Part shown: positions 2,186 through 22,359 of the stretch, one piece after another
Layout: every line of letters begins with the position of its first letter
How positions within the stretch are numbered: position 1 is the first letter of the stretch
DNA from: a virus
Reading direction: 5' to 3' (one strand)
Virus record (IMG/VR): IMGVR_UViG_3300013125_000052
Location: 1-22,900 of that record
DNA length: 22,900 bases
Translations under genes and position numbers: made by a program
The notes under the pieces: generated by a model
The model's input: only the letters and a program-made list of their open reading frames with translations
What the model was told of the DNA's origin: nothing
Databases searched by the model: none

Positions 2186-2716
2186 ATGAGGAAAGAAGAA
2201 ATTCAGCACAGAATTAATGGTAGATTACTTAGTGAACAAACTATCAGACTAGTAGGTGATAATATCGAAAATGGTGTGATTGACACTAAGTTAGCTTTAA
2301 AAATGGCAAGAGAAATGGAATTAGATTTGGTAGAAATTTCAAAGCCAAATGGTGGTATATCAATTTGTAAAATTATTGATTATCAGAAATTTCTGTATGA
2401 CAAGAAGAAAAAAGAGAAGGAGCAGAAGAAAAAACAAAAGCAAAATCAATCCGAAATTAAAGAAATTAGAATGACACCTAATACAGATGATCATGATTTT
2501 AATTTCAAGTTAGTTCATGCTAAGAAGTTTTTGAATGATAATGATAAGGTTTTAGTATCTGTATTTTTTAAAGGAAGAGAGATTACCTATAAAGAAAAAG
2601 GTGAAATGGTACTATTAAAATTTGCAGAAGAGCTTACTGGTATTGGTATACCTGAATATATGCCAAAATTAGAAGGTAAAAGAATGTTGATGATGATAAA
2701 ACCAGCAAAGAAATGA
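2186..2716 (+). CDS. infC: Translation initiation factor IF-3
   Basis: A full-length IF-3 of 176 residues (bacterial IF-3 is about 170-200). In bacteria IF-3 binds the 30S subunit, keeps it apart from 50S and checks initiator tRNA and start-codon pairing. The N-domain carries IRLVGDNIENGV, LDLVEIS and CKIIDYQKFLYD (about 20-72). A Lys/Gln-rich linker follows (about 73-89). The C-domain carries KEIRMTPNTDDHDFNFKL, VFFKGREI and PKLEGKRMLMMIKP (about 92-174), so the basic 30S-contact residues appear present. The wording is that of Bacteroidota IF-3, suggesting capture from such a host. Translation starts at ATG after an A-rich leader, unlike the AUU start of Escherichia coli infC. Its stop overlaps the next start (ATGA), so the two are probably co-translated. 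Confidence 0.95.
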   Translation: MRKEEIQHRINGRLLSEQTIRLVGDNIENGVIDTKLALKMAREMELDLVEISKPNGGISICKIIDYQKFLYDKKKKEKEQKKKQKQNQSEIKEIRMTPNTDDHDFNFKLVHAKKFLNDNDKVLVSVFFKGREITYKEKGEMVLLKFAEELTGIGIPEYMPKLEGKRMLMMIKPAKK

Positions 2717-9544: not shown

Positions 9545-9796
9545 AACAGAATTTATTCTTTCTAATTTAATTCTTCTTAACGATTTTGGTTTACATTTCT
9601 GTAATATATATTCTGCTAATCTGATTGCTTCTTCTTTTGAAAGAAGTCCACCAGTGTAACCATGTTGACCCCATTCTACACCAAAACTAAAACCAGTTTT
9701 ACCACCGCATCGTACTTCATTAGATTTAGATATTTCGATTTTACCAGCACCAACAACATCCAAATATAAATAATTTTTGTGCCAATCAGGTCTCAT
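9539..9796 (-). CDS. Unknown small protein downstream of the polymerase fragment
   Basis: I do not recognise this protein. It is 85 residues and begins MRPDWHKNYLYLDVVGAGKIEIS. It has a Gly-rich central stretch (RCGGKTGFSFGVEWGQHGYTGG), then SKEEAIRLAEYILQKC and a basic C-terminus. The Gly/aromatic pattern suggests a compact beta-rich fold followed by a helix. Its ATG overlaps the polymerase stop (ATGA at 9793-9796), so it is translationally coupled to that gene. Confidence 0.6.
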   Translation of the reverse strand: MRPDWHKNYLYLDVVGAGKIEISKSNEVRCGGKTGFSFGVEWGQHGYTGGLLSKEEAIRLAEYILQKCKPKSLRRIKLERINSVL

Positions 9797-11154
9797 ATTT
9801 GAAATATTGAATTTAATACAGATAATCTCTTATTTATGGTTGGAAGTCCAATTGGTTCAATGAATCTATTTATTACACTTAACATGCAAACATCAAATTG
9901 TTCATCATAATCTATTTTAACACCTTCTTTTTCAACTATTTCATATGGATGCATACTTCTCATATAGGCAAAAACATTATTCTTAGGATGATTGCAATAA
10001 TAATATTTTATTCTACCACCTCTAATATTATCATATTTAATTTTATATTCAGAATTCTTATTTAAAAGATAATTATGCAAAGCAGACGCTTTAACTCCAA
10101 AATGAGCACCTTTAACAGTAACAACACCAGTAACATCATCTATAATTTTAGATGAATAATTAGAACAACTTGTAGTCATACTAATATCTTCAATATCAGC
10201 CATCATAAATTGTTTTTTCAAATCCTTTACAAGTAAAAGTATTTTTCTAATATTAAGATTATTAGGATTTGCAAAAATATATTTTAAAAACTCATAAATA
10301 TTTTCTCTAACAAAAAGTGGTGTAGATGATTTAACAATTTCTACACCTTTTGGATAAAAATAACTTAAATTTTCATAGAAAATTCCATCCTCCCAAACCA
10401 CATTATTAATATAATTCTTTTTCTGAATATGTAGAGCTGATCTATTAATAGTTTCAAGTTCAAAATCATGTATATTTTTTACACCAAATTTAGCAGCATA
10501 TTCATCTAAATAAGTATTAAATAATTTTTTAATAATAACTCTATCAAGATGTAGAATGAAATCTAATTCATCACCTTTGAATCCGCAAGAATCTATCATT
10601 GGTTGAAATGAAATATATAAACTGTCCGTATCACCGTAAATAGTTATAGGTGAATCAGTTAGTATTTTTTCAACATTAGAAAAATCATGTATATCTCTAC
10701 GAAATAATACATTATAACCTTCAACAATTTTTTTATCTTCTTTTAGATCTGATCTCAAAAAATTAAGTTTAGTTATTAATTCATCAAGAGAATTATGTGC
10801 ATAATTAATATTCTCACCATCCCTATTTAATAAGTAATATTTGCCTTCTTTTTCGGCAATATATTCTATTCCTAATTTTTTATGTGCATCAATATCTAAA
10901 TGCCACTCTTTATAAAAATATTTTTCAATTTTTTTGAGCATATACTGAATTACGTCACGGCCCATAGCCGTAATAGCATTTGCAATATGTGAATTTGATA
11001 GAACAAATTTTGGATGTGCAAAAGCACCATATGTACCATTAATTACTAATTTTAGAGCAAGTTGCATCGCTTTTGCTCTATCATAATCCGCTTGTGTCTC
11101 TTCTATTTTTTTCTTTAATTCAGATATTTTCTCTCTTTTTTCCGCAGCAGTCAT
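9793..11154 (-). CDS. 43: Family B DNA polymerase, C-terminal half (T4 gp43-like)
   Basis: A 453-residue protein that begins just before the fingers helix of a family B polymerase. Residues 31-47 (QLALKLVINGTYGAFAH) are motif B, with Lys35, Asn39, Tyr42 and Gly43. Residues 173-178 (YGDTDS) are motif C, with the metal-binding Asp175 and Asp177. Later landmarks match T4 gp43: KKNYINNVVWEDGIFYE, KGVEIVKSSTP and a C-terminal FIEPIG...LNSIF that resembles the clamp-binding tail. The 3'-5' exonuclease domain and motif A (DxxSLYP) are absent and are not found upstream in the window, so the gene can only act with a separate N-terminal subunit. Split gene 43 is known in some Aeromonas T4-like phages. 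An endonuclease gene lies directly upstream. I chose ATG 11154; the frame is open for about 18 codons before it. Confidence 0.88.
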   Translation of the reverse strand: MTAAEKREKISELKKKIEETQADYDRAKAMQLALKLVINGTYGAFAHPKFVLSNSHIANAITAMGRDVIQYMLKKIEKYFYKEWHLDIDAHKKLGIEYIAEKEGKYYLLNRDGENINYAHNSLDELITKLNFLRSDLKEDKKIVEGYNVLFRRDIHDFSNVEKILTDSPITIYGDTDSLYISFQPMIDSCGFKGDELDFILHLDRVIIKKLFNTYLDEYAAKFGVKNIHDFELETINRSALHIQKKNYINNVVWEDGIFYENLSYFYPKGVEIVKSSTPLFVRENIYEFLKYIFANPNNLNIRKILLLVKDLKKQFMMADIEDISMTTSCSNYSSKIIDDVTGVVTVKGAHFGVKASALHNYLLNKNSEYKIKYDNIRGGRIKYYYCNHPKNNVFAYMRSMHPYEIVEKEGVKIDYDEQFDVCMLSVINRFIEPIGLPTINKRLSVLNSIFQI

Positions 11155-11191
11155 CTTTAAAATTCTTTTTATTTTATATAAAAAAATTAAA

Positions 11192-11779
11192 CTATAGTTT
11201 ATATAAAAATTTTAAGTTTCCAGAATTGAATATTCTTAAGTATCCCAACTCATCCATGATTTCAAATTCAGTCTTTTTAGAATCATATCCATTTTTAACT
11301 AAAATATCTTTTCTAAAATTAAATCTATTTAATTTATTTAAATTATTATCAATATAAAAATAATTAACTTCTGTTTTTTTACTCAAAATAAATCCTAATT
11401 TAAGGTATAAATCACCTTTACTATAACATCGATCTGCATATGATATAATTTCTTTTGGCATAAATTTTATCACAAAATATTTGAATAATCTAGATGCACC
11501 ACCAATTACGTTAACATTTAATTTATTACAAAATCTTAACATCTCATACTTATCAATTAAATTTATATTACCCAAATTTTTTCTATTTGCTCCAAATGTC
11601 ATTAAACTACACAATTCATTATTATAAAATAATCCTATTTTAAACTTAGAGCCAACAAAACCTTGAATATGATTTTGATTCAAAAAATCTTTAATCAATT
11701 TATTATCTGTAATTTCTTTTATCTCACATTTTCTAGCAAATATTTTATTTGGTGTTTTGTTCAGTTTATTTAATATCAT
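11192..11779 (-). CDS. Homing-endonuclease-like protein, C-terminal part after an amber codon
   Basis: A 195-residue open frame that continues, in the same reading frame, the gene stopped at 11816-11818. The codons between the amber and this first Met read DEWINKKEIIKS, which directly continues IHIW before the stop; the usual wording in this family is IHIWEDEW. The domain holds FLNQNHIQGFVGSKFKIGL, MTFGANRKN, EMLRFCNKL and GGASRLFKYFV, a C-terminal module seen in many phage endonuclease-like proteins. It ends in a TAG. On its own it is probably a remnant unless internal initiation or amber suppression occurs. It lies 37 bp upstream of the DNA polymerase half. Confidence 0.6.
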   Translation of the reverse strand: MILNKLNKTPNKIFARKCEIKEITDNKLIKDFLNQNHIQGFVGSKFKIGLFYNNELCSLMTFGANRKNLGNINLIDKYEMLRFCNKLNVNVIGGASRLFKYFVIKFMPKEIISYADRCYSKGDLYLKLGFILSKKTEVNYFYIDNNLNKLNRFNFRKDILVKNGYDSKKTEFEIMDELGYLRIFNSGNLKFLYKL

Positions 11780-11815
11780 AGATTTAATAATTTCTTTTTT
11801 ATTAATCCACTCGTC

Positions 11816-12790
11816 CTACCAGATATGAATTAATTGAATATCATTAAGTTCACACTCTTCAGTTTTATTTAAATGATATTTTCTATCTTTATAAATATCA
11901 GAATGCCAATAGACTCCATTATATTCAAATGCTAATTTTAAATCTGGTAAATATATATCTAATTCTTTAGATATTTCTTCTTTATAATTTCTTAAAATAA
12001 TTCCATTATAATTCAATTCTATAAATTTTGCAAGTTCCATTTCTCTTGCAGATTCTTTATAATCCAATTTATTACATATTGTGCATAATGTTGTTTTTTG
12101 AATCATCTTTCTCTGATATAAATTTTTACTACTTATATTAAAATAATGATCACAACCTTGATCGCACTTTATGTCTATAGTTCTATCGTCTTTTAAGTTA
12201 TATTCAATTATATTATAATTCTTTAATTTAAATAACGCATCTGATTCCCACCGTTTATATGTTAGTTCATAAAAGTCCTCAGACTTTGAAAAGTGATCAA
12301 CTCCCCAATTTTCTAAATTTGTTTTTATTATTTTTTTTCTTATATCAGATGAAGATAAAATTTCATTAACTCCATATTTATCAAATATAGTTTTATTTAT
12401 TTTTTCTTTAGTATTCTTTTCTAATAAAGTAGTTTTAACTCCATATTTTTCCATATTATTTTTTGATATTTTTTCTTTGCACTCATCTGTTTTTGAATAA
12501 TTGGTGGTACCATATCTATCTAAAGATGTTATTCTCCTTTTCAGATTTGAGCATTTTTTACATCCATAATATCCACATCTTTTTTCATTTTCTAAATATT
12601 TATGATATGCTATTTCCTTTTCTACACCGCATATATCACAAATAGCTGTAATTTTTTGATGAGAAACTGATGATAAATGTATAGGGTTAATTATTAATAA
12701 TTCGTGAAGATTTGTCTTATATCCTAATTTTCTATAATGAGTTATATTTCTATATGAAATATTTACAGTTATTTCTTTTTCTTTTATCAT
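11816..12790 (-). CDS. Homing-endonuclease-like protein, N-terminal part ending at an amber codon
   Basis: A 324-residue product up to an in-frame TAG. Order: a zinc-ribbon-like region (CDICGVEKE, about 50-58; CGYYGCKKCS, about 72-81); three or four repeats of the type RYGTTNYSKT / KYGVKTTLLE / KYGVNEILSS / NWGVDHFSKS, each preceded by a Lys-rich helix (DNA-binding modules of DUF7487-like type, from memory); then a Vsr-like nuclease core with ELDIYLPDLKLAFEYNGVYWHSD and KTEECELNDIQLIHIW. The nuclease core is almost complete, but the C-terminal module is cut off by the stop. The ATG follows TATAAAT directly. Whether it is active, suppressed or decayed cannot be told. Confidence 0.65.
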   Translation of the reverse strand: MIKEKEITVNISYRNITHYRKLGYKTNLHELLIINPIHLSSVSHQKITAICDICGVEKEIAYHKYLENEKRCGYYGCKKCSNLKRRITSLDRYGTTNYSKTDECKEKISKNNMEKYGVKTTLLEKNTKEKINKTIFDKYGVNEILSSSDIRKKIIKTNLENWGVDHFSKSEDFYELTYKRWESDALFKLKNYNIIEYNLKDDRTIDIKCDQGCDHYFNISSKNLYQRKMIQKTTLCTICNKLDYKESAREMELAKFIELNYNGIILRNYKEEISKELDIYLPDLKLAFEYNGVYWHSDIYKDRKYHLNKTEECELNDIQLIHIW

Positions 12791-12863: not shown

Positions 12864-14078
12864 TCAGCGGTTTATCAATCCTACCTGCCAATAGGTTTTA
12901 CCTGAAATAGTTATTGAAACCTGATTACTCAATTCATTAACCGTATATTGCTCTATATTTTCGTTTGAAAAATTAGCACTTTCACCTTTCCAAGCTGAGA
13001 CTTTAATGAGATCGGCTACATGATCTATTCTACAAGCAACTCCAACAGTAGTACTACCAGCAAAGCATAATCCGATAATTTTCTTTGTACCTTCAATATC
13101 TGCAATCAAAGCTGAACCAGAATCACCATGCCAAATAGGATAATTACAAATACTAAAGGGTCTTGTTGAACCAGATGTTGCAACAAAACTAATGAGATCA
13201 GTAAAAGTAGCATTTGTATCTATACCTTGCCTATGATAAGGTCCTACCAATGTAGTATCACCTATAGATGATATTCTAAGTTTTGTAGTACCTTCACCTT
13301 TTCCTCCAGTTGTTCTACCAGCACTATATAAATAAGGATCAGTATCTAGAAGTGCATCTAATTCTTCCGTTGTTGCAAAATCTAATCCTAGTCCAGTAAT
13401 ACTATCACTTAATCCTTCTTGTTTATAAGATATTCCAGAATTAAATGTGCTTCCAGATCTAATTGTAATTAGAGCGACATCAACATAATTATATTCTTCA
13501 GAACTTATTGGATAATATCTTTTAACCAATCCTATTGGAAAATTATCGGTTAAACTTTCGTGTGGTTGACTTGCTGTATTTCCAGATATATTAGCAATTA
13601 ATCCTATCTGGCTTCTTTCTGAACATAAAAATGCATCATTTATTAAGACATGATTATTAGAAACACCAATTAAAGTATTGGTATTGGCATCTAATGCTAG
13701 AAATCCCAAGGTTCCAGTTGTTGCTGACATTGCTGGCATTGAACTACATGATACACCACCTTTCAGTGGTCTAGATGAATTTCTATTTGAAGGCGGAGTA
13801 ATTTGCCAAGAATAAAATGATGAATCACATATTAATTTTATATCACGTTCTACCACATCAGTAGATATTATATCTCCATTAATTTCTATGCTGGATGGTA
13901 ATAATTCATCTTCTGTTAATGATTCTTTTGGCTTCTTTTGTTTTACTGTAAAAACTATAGATTTTTCATCCGTCATAACACCATTTGAAATTTTAAAACC
14001 ATACCCAACAGAAATGATATTATCATTTGTGCCCTGATAGTAATCTTGAGTTTGTTTTAAAATTTCTTCGTGTTTCAT
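12864..14078 (-). CDS. Trypsin-like serine protease
   Basis: A 404-residue protein with a chymotrypsin-fold protease domain. The triad is visible: His143 in GVSNNHVL, Asp200 in VDVALI and Ser320 in GDSGSAL. Residues 1-100 form an N-terminal extension with VGYGFKI and KSIVFTVKQKKP; this resembles the propeptide-like lead of bacterial 'trypsin-like' proteins that start with ixVGxGxK. No signal peptide is present, so it acts in the infected cell or as a virion part. The last 50 residues (ENIEQYTVNELSNQVSITISGKTYWQVGLINR) look like a small added beta domain. It is the next gene after the Thr-rich protein (7 bp between them), so the two are probably expressed together. Its substrate is unknown. 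It is not the T4 gp21-type prohead protease. Confidence 0.85.
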   Translation of the reverse strand: MKHEEILKQTQDYYQGTNDNIISVGYGFKISNGVMTDEKSIVFTVKQKKPKESLTEDELLPSSIEINGDIISTDVVERDIKLICDSSFYSWQITPPSNRNSSRPLKGGVSCSSMPAMSATTGTLGFLALDANTNTLIGVSNNHVLINDAFLCSERSQIGLIANISGNTASQPHESLTDNFPIGLVKRYYPISSEEYNYVDVALITIRSGSTFNSGISYKQEGLSDSITGLGLDFATTEELDALLDTDPYLYSAGRTTGGKGEGTTKLRISSIGDTTLVGPYHRQGIDTNATFTDLISFVATSGSTRPFSICNYPIWHGDSGSALIADIEGTKKIIGLCFAGSTTVGVACRIDHVADLIKVSAWKGESANFSNENIEQYTVNELSNQVSITISGKTYWQVGLINR

Positions 14079-14085
14079 ACTATTT

Positions 14086-15057
14086 CTATCCTATATATAT
14101 AAATAATGTTTCAACATTCATTAGAGTTGTTGAGGTTGTAGTTGTTGGTGCTAATGTAGTGGTTGTTGTTGGTGCTAATGTAGTGGTTGTTGTTGGTGCT
14201 AATGTGGTAGTAGTTGTAGTCGGTGCTAATGTAGTGGTGGTTGTAATCAATATGGTAGTAGTAGTGGTTGATGCTAATGTAGTGGTGGTTGTAGTTGGTG
14301 CTAATGTAGTGGTGGTTGTAGTTGGTGCTAATGTAGTGGTGGTTGTAGTTGGTGCTAATGTGGTGGTTGTAGTTGGTGCTAATGTGGTGGTTGTAGTTGG
14401 TGCTAATGTAGTGGTTGTTATGAGTACTATTGTAGTTGTAGTTGTTGTCGTTGGAGTTAATGTAGTTGTAGTTGTTGTTGCTAAAATAGTAGTCGTAGTA
14501 GTCGTTAATGCTAATGTGGTTGTTGTTGTTGCTAAAATAGTTGTCGTAGTAGTCGCTAATGCTAATGTGGTTGTTGTTGTTTGAATAGGCGGAGATATCA
14601 TTATTGGTTCTATTGTGGTAGTTGTGGTTGCTAATGGTGCAACAGTAGTAGTTGTGGTTGTTGTTGCATCTTTAAAAGCATTATCATAAGATGCTATAAA
14701 TTTCATATTTGTCCAATCTGATGATGTACTTTCTAAACCATATACAAAGTTTTCTCTTCCTGGAATTGTTATCTGTGCTACATTAAGAATAAAATATTTT
14801 AAAAAACTATTAATCAACTCAACATTGCTTGAATTATTATTCAAATATTCAATTAAATTTTTACTATAGCCTTTACCACGAAGATTCACTGGAATAGTAG
14901 AGAAATCTATTTCCATTAAGGGTATAAATTCTAGTGAATTTTGCTGAAGAAAATCAATAATATTATTATAGATTGCAGGTCTGAATTTAAACTTAATTCT
15001 ATAATTATTTGTCCACGACCAACAATATGCTTGTATGAAAATTTCACTCATAAGCAT
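14086..15057 (-). CDS. Threonine-rich repeat protein, probable virion surface or fibre component
   Basis: A 323-residue protein. Residues 1-130 form a globular domain I do not recognise (SEIFIQAYCWSWTNNYRIKFKF, NLRGKGYSKNLIEYLNN, GRENFVYGLESTSSDWTNMKF). Residues 131-312 are almost entirely Thr runs broken by LAP, ILA, LAL or VAP (unit TTTTTLAPT, 8-10 residues), followed by an 11-residue hydrophobic end. Thr/Pro/Ala repeats of this type make extended, mucin-like stalks in phage structural proteins and can be O-glycosylated; that is family knowledge, not seen here. There is a choice of starts, MLMSE at 15057 or MSE two codons later. It stops with TAG. The downstream protease is 7 bp away. Confidence 0.75.
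   Translation of the reverse strand: MLMSEIFIQAYCWSWTNNYRIKFKFRPAIYNNIIDFLQQNSLEFIPLMEIDFSTIPVNLRGKGYSKNLIEYLNNNSSNVELINSFLKYFILNVAQITIPGRENFVYGLESTSSDWTNMKFIASYDNAFKDATTTTTTTVAPLATTTTTIEPIMISPPIQTTTTTLALATTTTTILATTTTTLALTTTTTTILATTTTTTLTPTTTTTTTIVLITTTTLAPTTTTTLAPTTTTTLAPTTTTTTLAPTTTTTTLAPTTTTTTLASTTTTTILITTTTTLAPTTTTTTLAPTTTTTLAPTTTTTLAPTTTTSTTLMNVETLFIYIG
14122..14667 (-). repeat. Degenerate minisatellite coding for Thr-rich repeats
   Basis: About 546 bp made of 24-30-bp units built on ACNACNACN...TTAGCACCA (plus strand: GGTGCTAATGTAGTGGTTGT). Near the C-terminal end units are almost identical; toward the N-terminal end they diverge into ACTACGAC and TTAGCAACA forms. Such arrays change length by slippage or recombination, so copy number likely varies between isolates. 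Confidence 0.9.
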
Positions 15058-17337: not shown

Positions 17338-19515
17338 TCATCTCGGATATCTTGAATTATTAATCTCTGGTCTACGTTTATATACTCTATTATAAGCACC
17401 AATTAATCCAACTGAATTATTAGATTTACTAACTACATTCTCTACAAATCTTAATTCATCCCCTTGTAAATTATTATTGGTCATCATATCTAAAAGATTT
17501 TTATAACCAACATTGTCAAAACATGTAGATAACGTTATTGTACTCATAACTACGTCATCATTTCCACTTTCAGCTTTATATGTTACATTACCTGAGAATG
17601 TTTCATGCTTACTAAATGTCGTTATCTCACTTATGTTTATATCGTTATGTAGAACCATTCTTCTACTTCTTATTGCCTGTTGAAATTCTTTATCTATAAT
17701 TAAATGTTTATCTTTATTTAATTTCAATCCTATTTTACCTACTATATCTTCTCTATTATGTTTATATCTTAAAAAAACAGAATTCGAATAATCATTATTT
17801 CCATCAAAAACATTAGGTAAATGTGCTAAAAACTCACCACCATAGGTATTCATTTCTAATACAACCTTAACTTTTTCCGGATCAAATAATTCAAATGCTA
17901 TTAAATAGAATATATGAGCGATTTCTCGTATAGAATACAAATTATTGCGATAAAGTCCAATCTGTTCTATTTTAAACAAATCATATAAGCTTTCATATTT
18001 ATATTTTTCAATTTCCTCTCTATCTCTTAACATTAATCTAAAGATATTAATAACCGAATAATCTTTTGCTAATCCTTCTGCTAAATCAAGCGATATCAGT
18101 ATATAATACTCCTTTGATTTGAATGGATTAAATAAACTAGTATCTCTTATAAATTTTAATGAATCATACGGTATATTTAATTTATTAAATTGTTGAATAT
18201 TCATATAATCAAAAGGTACTTGTTTACTCTTTAATAAATCAATAGTCTCTTTATTAAATAGAATTTTGTCACCAGTAACGAAGTGTAATCCATATTCTTG
18301 ATCGAACTTCTCTGCTGAACCAATAAGTTTTGTTTCTTCTTCTTGCCAATTTGTTACTACTGCTAATTCCGGAAGTGGTATTCCATTTACTCTTATCTTT
18401 CTTATGTTGTCTATATAAGTCTTTTCATCATTTACATCATATTTAACGCAATCTATAATATCATCATTGATGTGTTTTTTATAGAGTGTTATATCATAAT
18501 CTTCTCTTATAATTCTTAAGACCTGCGCTTTATTAAATCCAAATTTTTTGAGTTTAACATCAAGTATTTTAATTTTAGTATCTTCGCGGCCCGGTACCTG
18601 ATTCCAATAGACTCGCATAGCCTTATACGGATTTTTATTTGGATCATCATCGGGTAATTCAGCAAAAGTAAGTAATTCCCAGAACATATTAAATCCATTT
18701 GGTGTGGATGTAATAATAATTCTTGAATTATTAATTGAAGAAACAACAGGAATAATAGATCCATAATAATCTCTAATAAAATTATCAGGTATATGAGCGA
18801 ATTCATCAAGATATAAAAGGTCAATTGTAAAACCAATTGATGGCTCTTTTGTTCTATTTTCTGTCTGAATACGTGAATTATTTTCAAAAGCAACCTGTGT
18901 TTCATTCCAGTTAGTTACACCTTTCTTTAAGAAGAAAGGTAATAATTTATAAATATCTTTAATTTTTCTGATAATTTCTTTAACGGTTTTACCTTTATTG
19001 GCAACAATCATACATCCTTTATCATCATTAAATAAGACAAAATGTAAAATTACAATTGCTGCAGAAACAGTATTATGTGAAAGTATATCATTTGTGTAAT
19101 AACTCATTTCTGGAGTATCGATAGACAAATCAAACATAGACAATTTGCCTTTTAACTTCTTTATTGATTTAACTTTACTTTCACCTTTATTTGTTAATAC
19201 ATAATCATTATGGGATAAATCTATTAACATTTTTTGTTCGTGGTCTCTACAAAAAACAATATGTGTATCTGCTCCTTCTAATGATAAACCATTTTCTAGT
19301 TCTAATTTATATCTCTGAAATGGTTGGGTTATATTTATTTCTGTAACTGGAACCATACCATAATCAGTTTTCACCAATAATTCATTATCTAAAAAAATGG
19401 TATTCACAAATTTCTTTAATATATCATCCTCATTAGGATTAAAATTACGAAATTCGTACTTTTCAATTAGTTGAATAATAAAATATATAATATTTTTAAT
19501 AAAATTTTTAATCAT
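17338..19515 (-). CDS. terL: Terminase large subunit, C-terminal fragment preceded by split-intein C-half
   Basis: A 725-residue product. Residues 1-148 are an intein C-fragment ending YYTNDILSHN; Thr149 opens the C-extein TVSAAIVILHF, which completes the P-loop. TerL features follow: Walker B LLYLDEFAH with Asp237/Glu238, coupling motif TSTPNG (269-274), and the RNase H-like nuclease with Asp477 in ISLDLAEG, Glu555 in VVLEMNTYGG and Asp653/654 in ESGNDDVV. Joined to the N-extein (115 residues) it gives a 692-residue terminase, close to T4 gp17 (610). TerL is the packaging motor that translocates DNA into the prohead and cuts the concatemer. Without trans-splicing this fragment lacks Walker A and cannot power packaging. 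It ends in TGA, 81 bp before the clamp gene. Confidence 0.93.
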   Translation of the reverse strand: MIKNFIKNIIYFIIQLIEKYEFRNFNPNEDDILKKFVNTIFLDNELLVKTDYGMVPVTEINITQPFQRYKLELENGLSLEGADTHIVFCRDHEQKMLIDLSHNDYVLTNKGESKVKSIKKLKGKLSMFDLSIDTPEMSYYTNDILSHNTVSAAIVILHFVLFNDDKGCMIVANKGKTVKEIIRKIKDIYKLLPFFLKKGVTNWNETQVAFENNSRIQTENRTKEPSIGFTIDLLYLDEFAHIPDNFIRDYYGSIIPVVSSINNSRIIITSTPNGFNMFWELLTFAELPDDDPNKNPYKAMRVYWNQVPGREDTKIKILDVKLKKFGFNKAQVLRIIREDYDITLYKKHINDDIIDCVKYDVNDEKTYIDNIRKIRVNGIPLPELAVVTNWQEEETKLIGSAEKFDQEYGLHFVTGDKILFNKETIDLLKSKQVPFDYMNIQQFNKLNIPYDSLKFIRDTSLFNPFKSKEYYILISLDLAEGLAKDYSVINIFRLMLRDREEIEKYKYESLYDLFKIEQIGLYRNNLYSIREIAHIFYLIAFELFDPEKVKVVLEMNTYGGEFLAHLPNVFDGNNDYSNSVFLRYKHNREDIVGKIGLKLNKDKHLIIDKEFQQAIRSRRMVLHNDINISEITTFSKHETFSGNVTYKAESGNDDVVMSTITLSTCFDNVGYKNLLDMMTNNNLQGDELRFVENVVSKSNNSVGLIGAYNRVYKRRPEINNSRYPR
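19072..19515 (-). other. Split-intein C-fragment (IntC), 148 aa
   Basis: The core is about residues 41-148: beta segments NELLVKTDYGMVPVTEI and RYKLELENGLSLEGADTHIVF (block B, with the T-H pair), then DLSHNDYVLTNKG, and the terminal block G NDILSHN with penultimate His147 and the cyclising Asn148. The +1 residue is Thr. Block B lies here rather than on the N-half, so the split point is unusually early, as in AceL-TerL. The first 40 residues are extra: a hydrophobic helix (IKNFIKNIIYFIIQLIEKYEF) then an acidic patch. It is likely an association device with the matching tail of IntN. Confidence 0.88.
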
Positions 19516-19528
19516 AATATATTCTTTA

Positions 19529-20449
19529 TCATAATGGTAATTTTTTGAATTTATTTACCAATTTCATTATTTCATCGTCCATATCATAAGAATTGTTTTC
19601 ATATAAAGGAGATTCATCGTAACAATATGAATAACTTTCTTCATATCTTTTTTGTTTACTAAATGCTTGTTTTATTGCATCCTTACTTTCTTCTATATAT
19701 TTACTTGAATTTTCTTTAAAAATATTTTCCCAATTTTTATAATATTTATTTATTTGAGATATATTTATTTGATCAATATCATATAGAAGATTAAACTGAT
19801 TTGTCAAATCTAATAAATCATCCTTTACATATTCTTTTATCATCTTAATTGAATTGAAATTTGATAAAAATACTAACATTTTATATAACTCATTTTCATA
19901 AAATCTGTCATACATTTCTTCTAATGTTTTTAATTTAGAATATAAATAACCTTCATATGTCATATTAACTCTAGCATCTAATTCATGTTCAAAATTATAA
20001 TAAATATAATTCAAAAAATCATGTTTATACTTTTTTACTGAATTTTTAAAATTTTCAATATTTATCATTCTATTAAAAGAAGTGAAATATTTATCTTCTC
20101 CGGATATCAATTGATAATAATGCGAAAATTCATGAGATAGTAAAGTATAAATTTTATTTATATCAACATTATCATCTTCTATATAAATATTAATATCATT
20201 TTTTTTAAAATTTTCTTTAATAATTTCTTGTACTGATATTTGTGCATGATATACAGAAATAGTTTTAAGAATATTTCTATCAATATGAATTGACGACGTA
20301 AAACCATATTTTTCAGAAAAATCTATAAAATAATCATTATCTGATATATTATTTAATTTCTCATGTATATCTAACATTAGTAAAGAAACATATTCATCTA
20401 CCTTTTCAAATAATTTTAAATTGCTAAATTTATTAAAATTTTTAAGCAT
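19529..20449 (-). CDS. HEFSH zinc-metallopeptidase-like protein within the fractured terL locus
   Basis: I chose ATG 20449 (MLKNFNKFSNLKLFEKVDEY, 306 residues); a TTG three codons upstream (20458) is also possible. Residues 106-110 are HEFSH, the zinc-binding HExxH helix (LLSHEFSHYYQ). About 45 residues later FEHELDAR supplies a candidate third ligand in an ExxA-like context, as in gluzincin-type enzymes. The rest is helical and Tyr/Asn-rich, ending LVNKFKKLPL. The N-terminus resembles the targeting-like leaders of the 4-9 kb cluster, with LFE at 13-15. It overlaps the end of the endonuclease gene by 8 bp and stands 13 bp before the terL C-fragment, so it travels within the terL interruption. 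Its substrate is unknown; peptidase activity is inferred from the motif. Confidence 0.6.
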   Translation of the reverse strand: MLKNFNKFSNLKLFEKVDEYVSLLMLDIHEKLNNISDNDYFIDFSEKYGFTSSIHIDRNILKTISVYHAQISVQEIIKENFKKNDINIYIEDDNVDINKIYTLLSHEFSHYYQLISGEDKYFTSFNRMINIENFKNSVKKYKHDFLNYIYYNFEHELDARVNMTYEGYLYSKLKTLEEMYDRFYENELYKMLVFLSNFNSIKMIKEYVKDDLLDLTNQFNLLYDIDQINISQINKYYKNWENIFKENSSKYIEESKDAIKQAFSKQKRYEESYSYCYDESPLYENNSYDMDDEIMKLVNKFKKLPL

Positions 20450-21419
20450 TTTCTTCAATTTTTAATTTTAAAAAAGATAAACATCTATCTAATGTATCTT
20501 TTTTGCTCTTTCTATATTCAGAATCCCATATTGTTATAACTTCAAATCCTTCTTCTCTTGCAACTTCTAATTTTTTTCTATCTTTTTCCCAAATCTCCGC
20601 AGCTGTTACATTTTTTCTAAATGGATGTGGATATTCATCCGATTCAAACATTTCAGGGTTTGCATGATATTCATCACCATTATACTCTATAATCTTCTTA
20701 TTTGGCAAATCAACAAAATCGTATATCCAAACACCACCTTCCTTTTTATTCAATCTAAATTCTGAATTTTTAGTAGCAAAATATATCTTATTTTTTTTAT
20801 CAAAATCATAAAATTTTAATATAGAATAAAATAGCTCTTGTGACGCATTTGAATAGCCTTGTTTTAAATTTCCATTTTCATTTAAAGATTTCTGCCATCT
20901 CTCCTGTCTTTCAGTAAATATCTTTCTACCTTTTTCTTCACCGTATCTCTGAATGCATTTTTCTAATGTAAACGTTTTTTGTCTATCTGATAATTTCTCT
21001 TTTGCTTCATTATCAGACAGACCTTTATTTATCCAATAATCTAACCTAGTAGTATACGATTTTTTATCACAAACTTTTTTAATAAATTCATTTTTTTGAT
21101 TTTCATCTTTATAATTAACAAATTTTTCAGAAAAAGGGGAACATTTTTGTCTTTGTTCTAAAGTTGTTTTTGACTTATGATTCGGATTTTTTTCACCTTT
21201 TATTTTTTCAGAAAACATTTTTTTATATTTTTCTTCTTTCATATGTTTTCCACTATTTTTTGATGTATTTTTAGCATCAATTTCCGAATATAATGGCTCA
21301 CCTGGATACTTTTTTTTATAATCATCCGAAGTTAACCCATGAGACTTTAAATGTCTACCATAAATCCTTTGTGATTTAAATCCACATATTTTACAAGTTA
21401 TTAAATTATCGTTTTCCAT
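20442..21419 (-). CDS. Vsr-like homing endonuclease with N-terminal zinc finger
   Basis: A 325-residue protein lying between the two terL fragments. An N-terminal MucR/Ros-like C2H2 finger is seen (Cys9, Cys12, His23, His27; GRHLKSHGLTSDDYKKKYPG). A Lys-rich DNA-binding linker follows, with ...IKGEKNPNHKSKTTLEQRQ and LEKCIQRYGEEKGRKIFTERQ (the latter about 153-173). The C-terminal 110 residues form the nuclease: NSEFRL, VWIYDFVDLPNKKIIEYNGDE, YHANP and WEKDRKKLEVAREEGFEVIT. This fits the Vsr-like (EDxHD-type) homing endonucleases reported beside split inteins. It would cut intein-less terL alleles to spread the cassette; that target is inference. The 57-bp gap upstream has no clear promoter on the minus strand. 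Confidence 0.8.
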   Translation of the reverse strand: MENDNLITCKICGFKSQRIYGRHLKSHGLTSDDYKKKYPGEPLYSEIDAKNTSKNSGKHMKEEKYKKMFSEKIKGEKNPNHKSKTTLEQRQKCSPFSEKFVNYKDENQKNEFIKKVCDKKSYTTRLDYWINKGLSDNEAKEKLSDRQKTFTLEKCIQRYGEEKGRKIFTERQERWQKSLNENGNLKQGYSNASQELFYSILKFYDFDKKNKIYFATKNSEFRLNKKEGGVWIYDFVDLPNKKIIEYNGDEYHANPEMFESDEYPHPFRKNVTAAEIWEKDRKKLEVAREEGFEVITIWDSEYRKSKKDTLDRCLSFLKLKIEENA

Positions 21420-21476
21420 ATTTTTTTATTAGTATATATAAATATTTTCTGGTCGCTTTTAGTCAAAATGGAAAAA

Positions 21477-21986
21477 TTATTGTAATTTATATATTAAATT
21501 GTATAACATAATTTTAATTTTTTCTAATAATGTCAATTTTCTATCTTTTTTCAATTCATTATAGTACAAAAGCCCTATTGGAACTTTAATAGTATCGCCA
21601 GATTTTGAAATCACTAGTATATTGGTTATAAATGATATACATTTACCAGTCTGCCTGGATGCCATTAAAATACTTCTAGGATTCTTTGTATATAAGTCTA
21701 TAATATCCTTCTGATAATCTCGAAGCTTCATAGGTCCAATTGAACCATCTTCTCTTTTAATTTGACAATATCTTTCAGCAAAATAATGTATATTAATTTT
21801 ACATTTGATATACTCCTCAAATTCATCATCAGTCATTGCAAAAACTAAGTTTGCTTTTCGCACACCTCTAGTATTCGCGAACCACAATTTCTCATGTCTC
21901 TTGAGTACCTTACCTAAATTTTCTTTTTCCTCTATATTATTAACTATTTCAGTAGTTAATATAAATTCTTCTAACTTCTCCGCCAT
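21477..21986 (-). CDS. terL: Terminase large subunit, N-terminal fragment fused to split-intein N-half
   Basis: A 169-residue product. Residues 1-115 are the TerL N-terminus: an adaptor region (WFANTRGVRKANLVFAMTDDE), then FAERYCQIKREDG, MKLRDYQKDIIDLY (the Q-motif-like part of gp17 family ATPases) and LMASRQTGK, the Walker A loop up to its Lys115. Cys116 starts the intein N-fragment (CISFITNILVISKSGDTIK). The C-extein resumes at Thr149 of the gene at 17338-19515. Here the break lies inside the catalytic P-loop, where no folded ATPase could work without splicing. The gene starts one base after the gp25-like gene, with the same orientation. Confidence 0.92.
   Translation of the reverse strand: MAEKLEEFILTTEIVNNIEEKENLGKVLKRHEKLWFANTRGVRKANLVFAMTDDEFEEYIKCKINIHYFAERYCQIKREDGSIGPMKLRDYQKDIIDLYTKNPRSILMASRQTGKCISFITNILVISKSGDTIKVPIGLLYYNELKKDRKLTLLEKIKIMLYNLIYKLQ
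21480..21641 (-). other. Split-intein N-fragment (IntN), 54 aa
   Basis: It starts with Cys116, the first splicing nucleophile. CISFITNILVISKSGDTIK then VPIGLLYYNEL is block A. Block B is absent; it is on the C-half. The core is about 30 residues, similar in size to the 25-residue AceL-TerL IntN. A 24-residue basic and hydrophobic tail follows (KKDRKLTLLEKIKIMLYNLI), likely a helix that pairs with the IntC extension. Confidence 0.85.
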
Positions 21987-21987
21987 A

Positions 21988-22359
21988 TTATTCGAATATA
22001 AATTCTATGTTATAGCCCTTAATTACAAAATTTAGATACAAAATATCTCTTAATGTTCCTTCATATAATAAAACATCAAAAGTATAGCCTAATCTAATAA
22101 GTTCTGGAATATATTTTGTGATTTGTTCCTCAACTTTTTGTTTTAGATTACCTGTTGTAATTCTAGTCTGCCATAAATAATATTCTAGATTACATCCAAT
22201 ATCATTGTCACCTAGAACCTCACCTTTATTAGTAAAAAGTATCATTTCTAATTTCTGGACGATTACTTCTATTTCATCATCCTCAACAATTCTACCGGGT
22301 TCATATTTTGGATGACCTGGATATCTTATAACTAAATCTTTTACGTCTTTTAAAGCCAT
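21988..22359 (-). CDS. 25: Baseplate wedge protein, T4 gp25-like
   Basis: A 123-residue protein (T4 gp25 is 132). Landmarks of the gp25/GPW family: DLVIRYPGHPKYEPG, then VEDDEIEVIVQKLEMILFTNKGEVLGDNDIG (the helix-turn that includes the conserved NKGE..GD..G stretch) and LEYYLWQTRI. The C-terminal part YIPELIRLGYTFDVLLYEGTLRD, then LNFVIKGYNIEF, fits the final strands. gp25 sits in the baseplate wedge and contacts the sheath and gp53/gp6. The gene starts with ATG 22359 after an A-rich leader. It is followed directly by the terL N-fragment, which is good evidence for a structural/packaging operon. Confidence 0.85.
   Translation of the reverse strand: MALKDVKDLVIRYPGHPKYEPGRIVEDDEIEVIVQKLEMILFTNKGEVLGDNDIGCNLEYYLWQTRITTGNLKQKVEEQITKYIPELIRLGYTFDVLLYEGTLRDILYLNFVIKGYNIEFIFE

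Follow-up and report, generated by a model that had tools for sequence, protein, structure and literature searches.

A large terminase gene interrupted at its P-loop by an apparently trans-splicing split intein in a metagenomic phage

The window analyzed here, 22.9 kb of a phage genome (positions 1 to 22,900 of IMG/VR record IMGVR_UViG_3300013125_000052), divides the gene for the large terminase subunit (TerL) into two separate genes, and this raises the question of how such a phage could make a working DNA packaging motor. Very probably, TerL is encoded as two proteins that carry the halves of a naturally split, class 1-type mini-intein between the Lys and Thr codons of the P-loop and are joined by protein trans-splicing, an arrangement that originated as a mobile fractured gene. 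The large-terminase genes all lie on the minus strand, and their parts are as follows (IntN and IntC are the intein N- and C-fragments; AAs, amino acids):

21477-21986, minus strand: TerL N-gene, 169 AAs, made up of 115 AAs of TerL and a 54 AA IntN that starts CISFITN
21642..21986, minus strand: TerL N-extein, 115 AAs, with the C-terminal end MASRQTGK, which is Walker A through its Lys
21480..21641, minus strand: IntN, 54 AAs, with Cys1; the stop codon is at 21477-21479
17338-19515, minus strand: TerL C-gene, 725 AAs, made up of 148 AAs ending in ILSHN and 577 AAs beginning TVSAAI
19072..19515, minus strand: IntC, 148 AAs, with blocks B (ADTH), F (MFDL) and G (SHN)
17341..19071, minus strand: TerL C-extein, 577 AAs from the Walker A Thr, with the rest of the ATPase and the nuclease domain; the stop codon is at 17338-17340

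Both TerL pieces match PHROG terminase families. When the exteins are joined they give a protein of 692 AAs, the product size predicted in the initial annotation of this DNA, which aligns without gaps to the intact, intein-free TerL of relative L059 (692 AAs, 84.5% identity). The sequence SRQTGK|TVSAAI at the junction in the window is uninterrupted in the intact relatives, and GKT is present at this place in all of the relatives with an empty site. An intact close relative matches T4 gp17 (3ezk; 7e-46), with SRQTGKT aligned to gp17 SRQLGKT, so the P-loop is broken between its Lys and its Thr; the Walker A sequence SRQxGKT, the ATPase domain and the nuclease domain make this a T4 gp17-type TerL. 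The proposal that a split intein interrupts the Walker A loop is thus borne out, with the break at Lys|Thr, SHN followed directly by Thr and exact continuity with the intact alleles. The distance between the halves had been given as more than 2 kb; they are indeed separate, but the stop of the N-gene and the start of the C-gene are 1,961 bp apart, slightly under that value.

A profile of the C-half matches known inteins, namely gp41-1 (2.4e-6), Cat (a consensus of atypical TerL inteins; 3.9e-6), VidaL (5.7e-5) and NrdJ-1; these matches to four solved intein families, together with Foldseek results on a middling structural model (below), identify a HINT fold. The lone C-half sequence has no match in the PDB, where its profile did match, the IntN and IntC profiles do not match one another, and the Pfam intein model applied to the window alone scores below its cut-off. 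The window has the class 1 residues Cys1, the block B His (ADTH) and an SHN|T end. Cys1 is present in the window and in 48/48 distinct N-fragments from relatives, and among distinct helix-type C-fragments (defined below) the terminal Asn is found in 53/54 and the penultimate His in 45/54; the pattern by which C-fragments were counted required the block B His, which hence has no independent count. The C-terminal end varies across the family, with NLN, SLN and SSQ also found. Median ratios of nonsynonymous to synonymous substitution (dN/dS) are 0.37 for IntN, 0.16 for IntC and 0.13–0.14 for TerL, values which indicate that both intein halves are under purifying selection. The intein is naturally split, in that its halves are in two separate genes and each is fused to a part of TerL.

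At 54/148 AAs, the window fragments are longer than those of AceL-TerL and GOS-TerL, and the excess consists of a helix in each fragment, next to the break:

21480..21536, minus strand: predicted helix that ends IntN (LTLLEKIKIMLYNLIYKLQ), conserved among split relatives of the helix type and missing from the contiguous and the short split ones
19450..19515, minus strand: helical extension at the N-terminus of IntC (MIKNFIKNIIYFIIQLIEKYEF), shared only with split relatives of the helix type

The initial annotation had singled out the extended C-half, and correctly so, since its 148 AAs compare with 104 in AceL-TerL and 115 in GOS-TerL and include this helical N-terminal extension. An AlphaFold model of a fused intein was made from relative L050, in which both halves share a reading frame and are separated by four TAA codons, here read as Gln purely as a linker device. 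The mean predicted local distance difference test score (pLDDT) of this model is 69, and its top 50 Foldseek matches are mostly inteins. The conserved extra helices on both fragments are an apparent built-in docking element.

How widespread this arrangement is was examined by searching IMG/VR with two protein scans and one profile scan, the last of which found 301 loci. The best 80 of the 301 are all split at the same point in TerL, and in every one of these there are at most 23 open codons before the C-fragment helix. The architecture is not due to chance, since it recurs in all 80 best-matching loci and Cys1 is present in all 48 distinct N-fragments. On the TerL tree, split alleles are intermingled with intact ones in a patchy distribution that implies at least five changes, as is expected of a mobile element. 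In some relatives the halves are dispersed: they are 12.4 kb apart in LR756501, a curated 735-kb phage from Al-Shayeb et al. 2020 (the word intein is absent from that paper; PMC7162821), and in G016 (12.3 kb) and G015 (9.0 kb) they are separated by genes in both orientations; in G010, a 30-kb contig, they are on opposite strands and >22 kb apart. These dispersed halves exclude read-through and cis RNA splicing, and on the evidence of gene order protein trans-splicing is the only plausible way to TerL in these relatives. The initial annotation's suggestion that packaging relies on trans-splicing is supported, as the only sensible way to TerL in this lineage.

The gap between the halves in the window contains two genes:

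20442..21419, minus strand: Vsr/EDxHD-like homing endonuclease candidate, intact, 325 AAs
19529..20458, minus strand: passenger open reading frame (ORF), 309 AAs, family unknown, with an HEFSH (HExxH) motif

The 325 AA protein matches Pfam ROS_MUCR, weakly DUF559/MTES_1575, and phrog_22677, and it carries conserved E/D..D..H..D residues. A model of it with pLDDT 64 has weak Foldseek matches to 1vsr, 3r3p and 1cw0 (Vsr and I-Bth0305I; E 0.05–0.15), and its sequence matches no nuclease among PDB sequences; the Vsr/EDxHD assignment is inferred from the conserved residues and the weak fold matches. Such a free-standing homing endonuclease candidate, the hallmark of a fractured gene, is found in the window gap and likewise in the gaps of most relatives. 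Among relatives the gap contains an EDxHD-like or a DUF7487-type endonuclease or the two together, and in others it has different genes or none; splits without an endonuclease occur in six lineages, with gaps of 18, 42, 76, 90, 91 and 112 bp. The 309 AA passenger has neither a Pfam nor a PHROG match. HExxH motifs (HEFSH, HELSH, HELKH) are common to differing gap passengers, both in the window (19529-20458) and in L068 (8384-9001 and 9017-9598), and these ORFs are perhaps metalloprotease-like.

We suggest that the two fragments would find each other with the aid of the paired helices at the break, and that the associated IntN and IntC would form the HINT fold. Splicing would then proceed by an N-S acyl shift at Cys1, transfer to Thr+1, Asn cyclization and an O-N shift, to yield an unscarred 692 AA TerL in which the P-loop is restored and ATP could be bound. 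A working packaging motor almost certainly needs to be stitched together after translation in this way. The arrangement probably arose as a mobile fractured gene in which the putative EDxHD-type endonuclease between the halves, predicted to cut intact terL alleles, would have spread the split. Later, in several lineages, the endonuclease would have been lost or the halves moved apart, and the split intein would have stayed because TerL depends on it; the persistence of the split where the endonuclease has gone indicates that TerL, and not mobility, is what requires the split intein.

Several findings weigh against trans-splicing or against its generality. The IntN profile found no chain in the PDB, so that the HINT-fold profile match anticipated in the initial annotation was obtained for the C-half but not for IntN. 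The fused model is only middling, with its last 29 residues below a pLDDT of 50. Opposite strands are seen in the G010 contig alone, of which a second contig confirms the C-half side only. The penultimate His is replaced by Leu in the LR756501 group (NLN|T), and LR756500 ends in SSQ|T; these ends depart from SHN|T, and such family members may splice differently or poorly. It could be proposed that splicing is dead and that a working motor is built by non-covalent assembly of the two TerL pieces, for which the intein remnants provide a dimerization tag and nothing more. The helices could serve as such a dimerizer, the penultimate His is missing in some members, and splicing here is deduced from sequence; but a bulky insert between the P-loop Lys and Thr should abolish ATP binding, and a mere tag would not need the invariant Cys1 and the nearly invariant terminal Asn, so we regard non-covalent assembly as improbable.

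Joining at the RNA level by a group I or II intron has a precedent in the terL genes of other huge phages (Jug), which are split by group I introns (PMC12363816). An Rfam search nevertheless gave no group I/II intron match here, and the relatives whose halves are separated by 12 kb and by genes of opposite orientation, or are on opposite strands, speak against an intron as well as against read-through or frameshifting. A sequencing or assembly artefact is countered by near-identical DNA on two further contigs from other metagenomes (6,772 bp with a single mismatch and 5,189 bp without any; 99.98–100%), and neither an intron nor an artefact explains why intein motifs flank the break exactly; we find this whole set of explanations scarcely credible. 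The two genes might instead be decaying remnants in a phage in which another terL does the work, since the window covers only part of its genome and some huge phages have an extra TerL-like ATPase ORF. Both halves are, however, under purifying selection, and the search for a second intact terL that the initial annotation called for found none in a 159-kb relative beyond the two halves. The third TerL match of LR756501 (699854-701026) has SRQMGIT, without the Walker Lys and without a nuclease domain, and similar truncated TerL ATPase-like ORFs (SRQMGI[ST]) are present in LR756500 (L082) and G019 (345974-346873; L255); we judge from their sequences that these paralogues are unable to replace TerL as an ATPase because the Walker Lys is missing. 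Decay therefore seems very unlikely, and protein trans-splicing remains our strongly favored explanation.

Among known systems, the contiguous TerL mini-inteins of the Ackermannviridae Shigella phage Ag3 and Dickeya phage Ds23CZ and of Vibrio phage VPALA share the K|C...SHN|T site and a related HINT sequence, and they fall in the same clade as the window intein relative to the AceL/GOS type; they differ in being contiguous and unbroken (159–173 AAs), without the long helices. The TerL proteins of Vibrio phage nt-1 and Tegunavirus were considered as intein carriers and rejected, as they have the intein-free length. Reportedly, Dassa et al. described in 2009 genes that are fractured by split inteins and accompanied by EDxHD endonucleases. 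The window resembles that type in having an essential phage gene split by an intein, with a free-standing candidate for a Vsr-like homing endonuclease in the gap, and differs in that the site is the TerL P-loop and in that several lineages have no endonuclease or have halves dispersed by up to 12 kb or on opposite strands. The AceL NrdHF split intein, for which trans-splicing is proven, is likewise from a metagenomic phage fractured gene with an endonuclease between the halves, but it has class 3 chemistry, a GIY-YIG endonuclease, a 98/48 split and a different host gene (PMC7891396).

The initial annotation had placed the window intein in the AceL-TerL class. A CatC query recovered 125 natural AceL/GOS/Cat-type relatives, of which 80 were kept and 22 read; in the 22 the site is EFE|C...SHN|CEFLGS, between the ATPase and nuclease parts, with Cys+1. 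AceL-TerL, GOS-TerL and Cat are like the window intein in being natural split inteins in phage TerL that are broken close to the N-terminal end of the HINT fold, so that IntN is short and IntC carries block B, and this part of the assignment stands. Membership of the lineage does not: the window has K|C..SHN|T where they have EFE|C..SHN|CEF, with Thr rather than Cys+1, and they have no paired helices and shorter fragments (25/104 AAs in AceL-TerL and 37/115 AAs in GOS-TerL, against 54/148; PMC11766414). The intein tree separates the Walker A-site inteins (helix-type split, short split and contiguous) from the EFE-site inteins at 100/100, and the helix-type split inteins form one group at 93/97. 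The window intein would thus work like AceL-TerL but is, by these comparisons, another lineage at another TerL site. The Thr+1 residue had been thought distinctive and is not: it is found in 12% of Cys1 inteins (PMC11766414), and in the window this residue is the very Thr of Walker A.

Other inteins were encountered at or near terL. In marine T4-like L203 (985-4299), L191 and L221, TerL is in three genes with two different split inteins; that at the Walker A site has an IntN of 39 AAs, an IntC of 115 AAs, Ser+1 and an EDxHD-type endonuclease (a remnant in L221), and that at the EFE site (EFE|CEF) has a GIY-YIG-like endonuclease ORF in L203, assigned by eye. In other phages the Lys|Thr/Ser site of the P-loop is taken up by two unrelated, contiguous LAGLIDADG inteins whose first residue is Ala or Met (L057 8346-9377, L069 365-1399, L176 and L189). 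The pattern of insertions indicates that the TerL Lys|Thr/Ser P-loop site is an insertion hotspot. Near the TerL N-half of LR756501, around 626357-627205 (L101), there is a ribonucleotide reductase ORF with an intein that apparently holds an HNH-like endonuclease.

Elsewhere in the window the following were noted:

21988..22359, minus strand: gp25-like baseplate wedge gene (Pfam and PHROG matches), directly upstream of the TerL N-gene
2186-2716, plus strand: phage-encoded translation initiation factor IF-3 (Pfam IF3_C, 4e-31)
9793-12790, minus strand: family B DNA polymerase (C-terminal half), with a homing endonuclease of the DUF7487/phrog_3339 kind upstream, broken into two ORFs; endonucleases of this kind also lie between the TerL halves of relatives, L044 and L037 among them
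14086-15057, minus strand: very Thr-rich repetitive protein, adjoining a protease-like ORF (12864-14078)

It is possible, though we hold this only tentatively, that the split intein of this huge-phage lineage has ceased to be selfish and has become the fixed way of making TerL, with its own helical docking pair, persistence without an endonuclease and tolerance of separate transcription units, and that assembly of the packaging motor could be timed or gated by the meeting of separately expressed proteins. As a practical matter, TerL is a marker gene that can be missed or truncated in searches of large phages. The natural split inteins described here, which interrupt the P-loop of an essential motor protein, form a large and widespread family whose genomic arrangements (12 kb apart, on opposite strands, endonuclease-free) leave protein trans-splicing as the only plausible route to TerL, and its many new natural fragment pairs should be of use as ligation tools and in experiments on the association of atypical split inteins.

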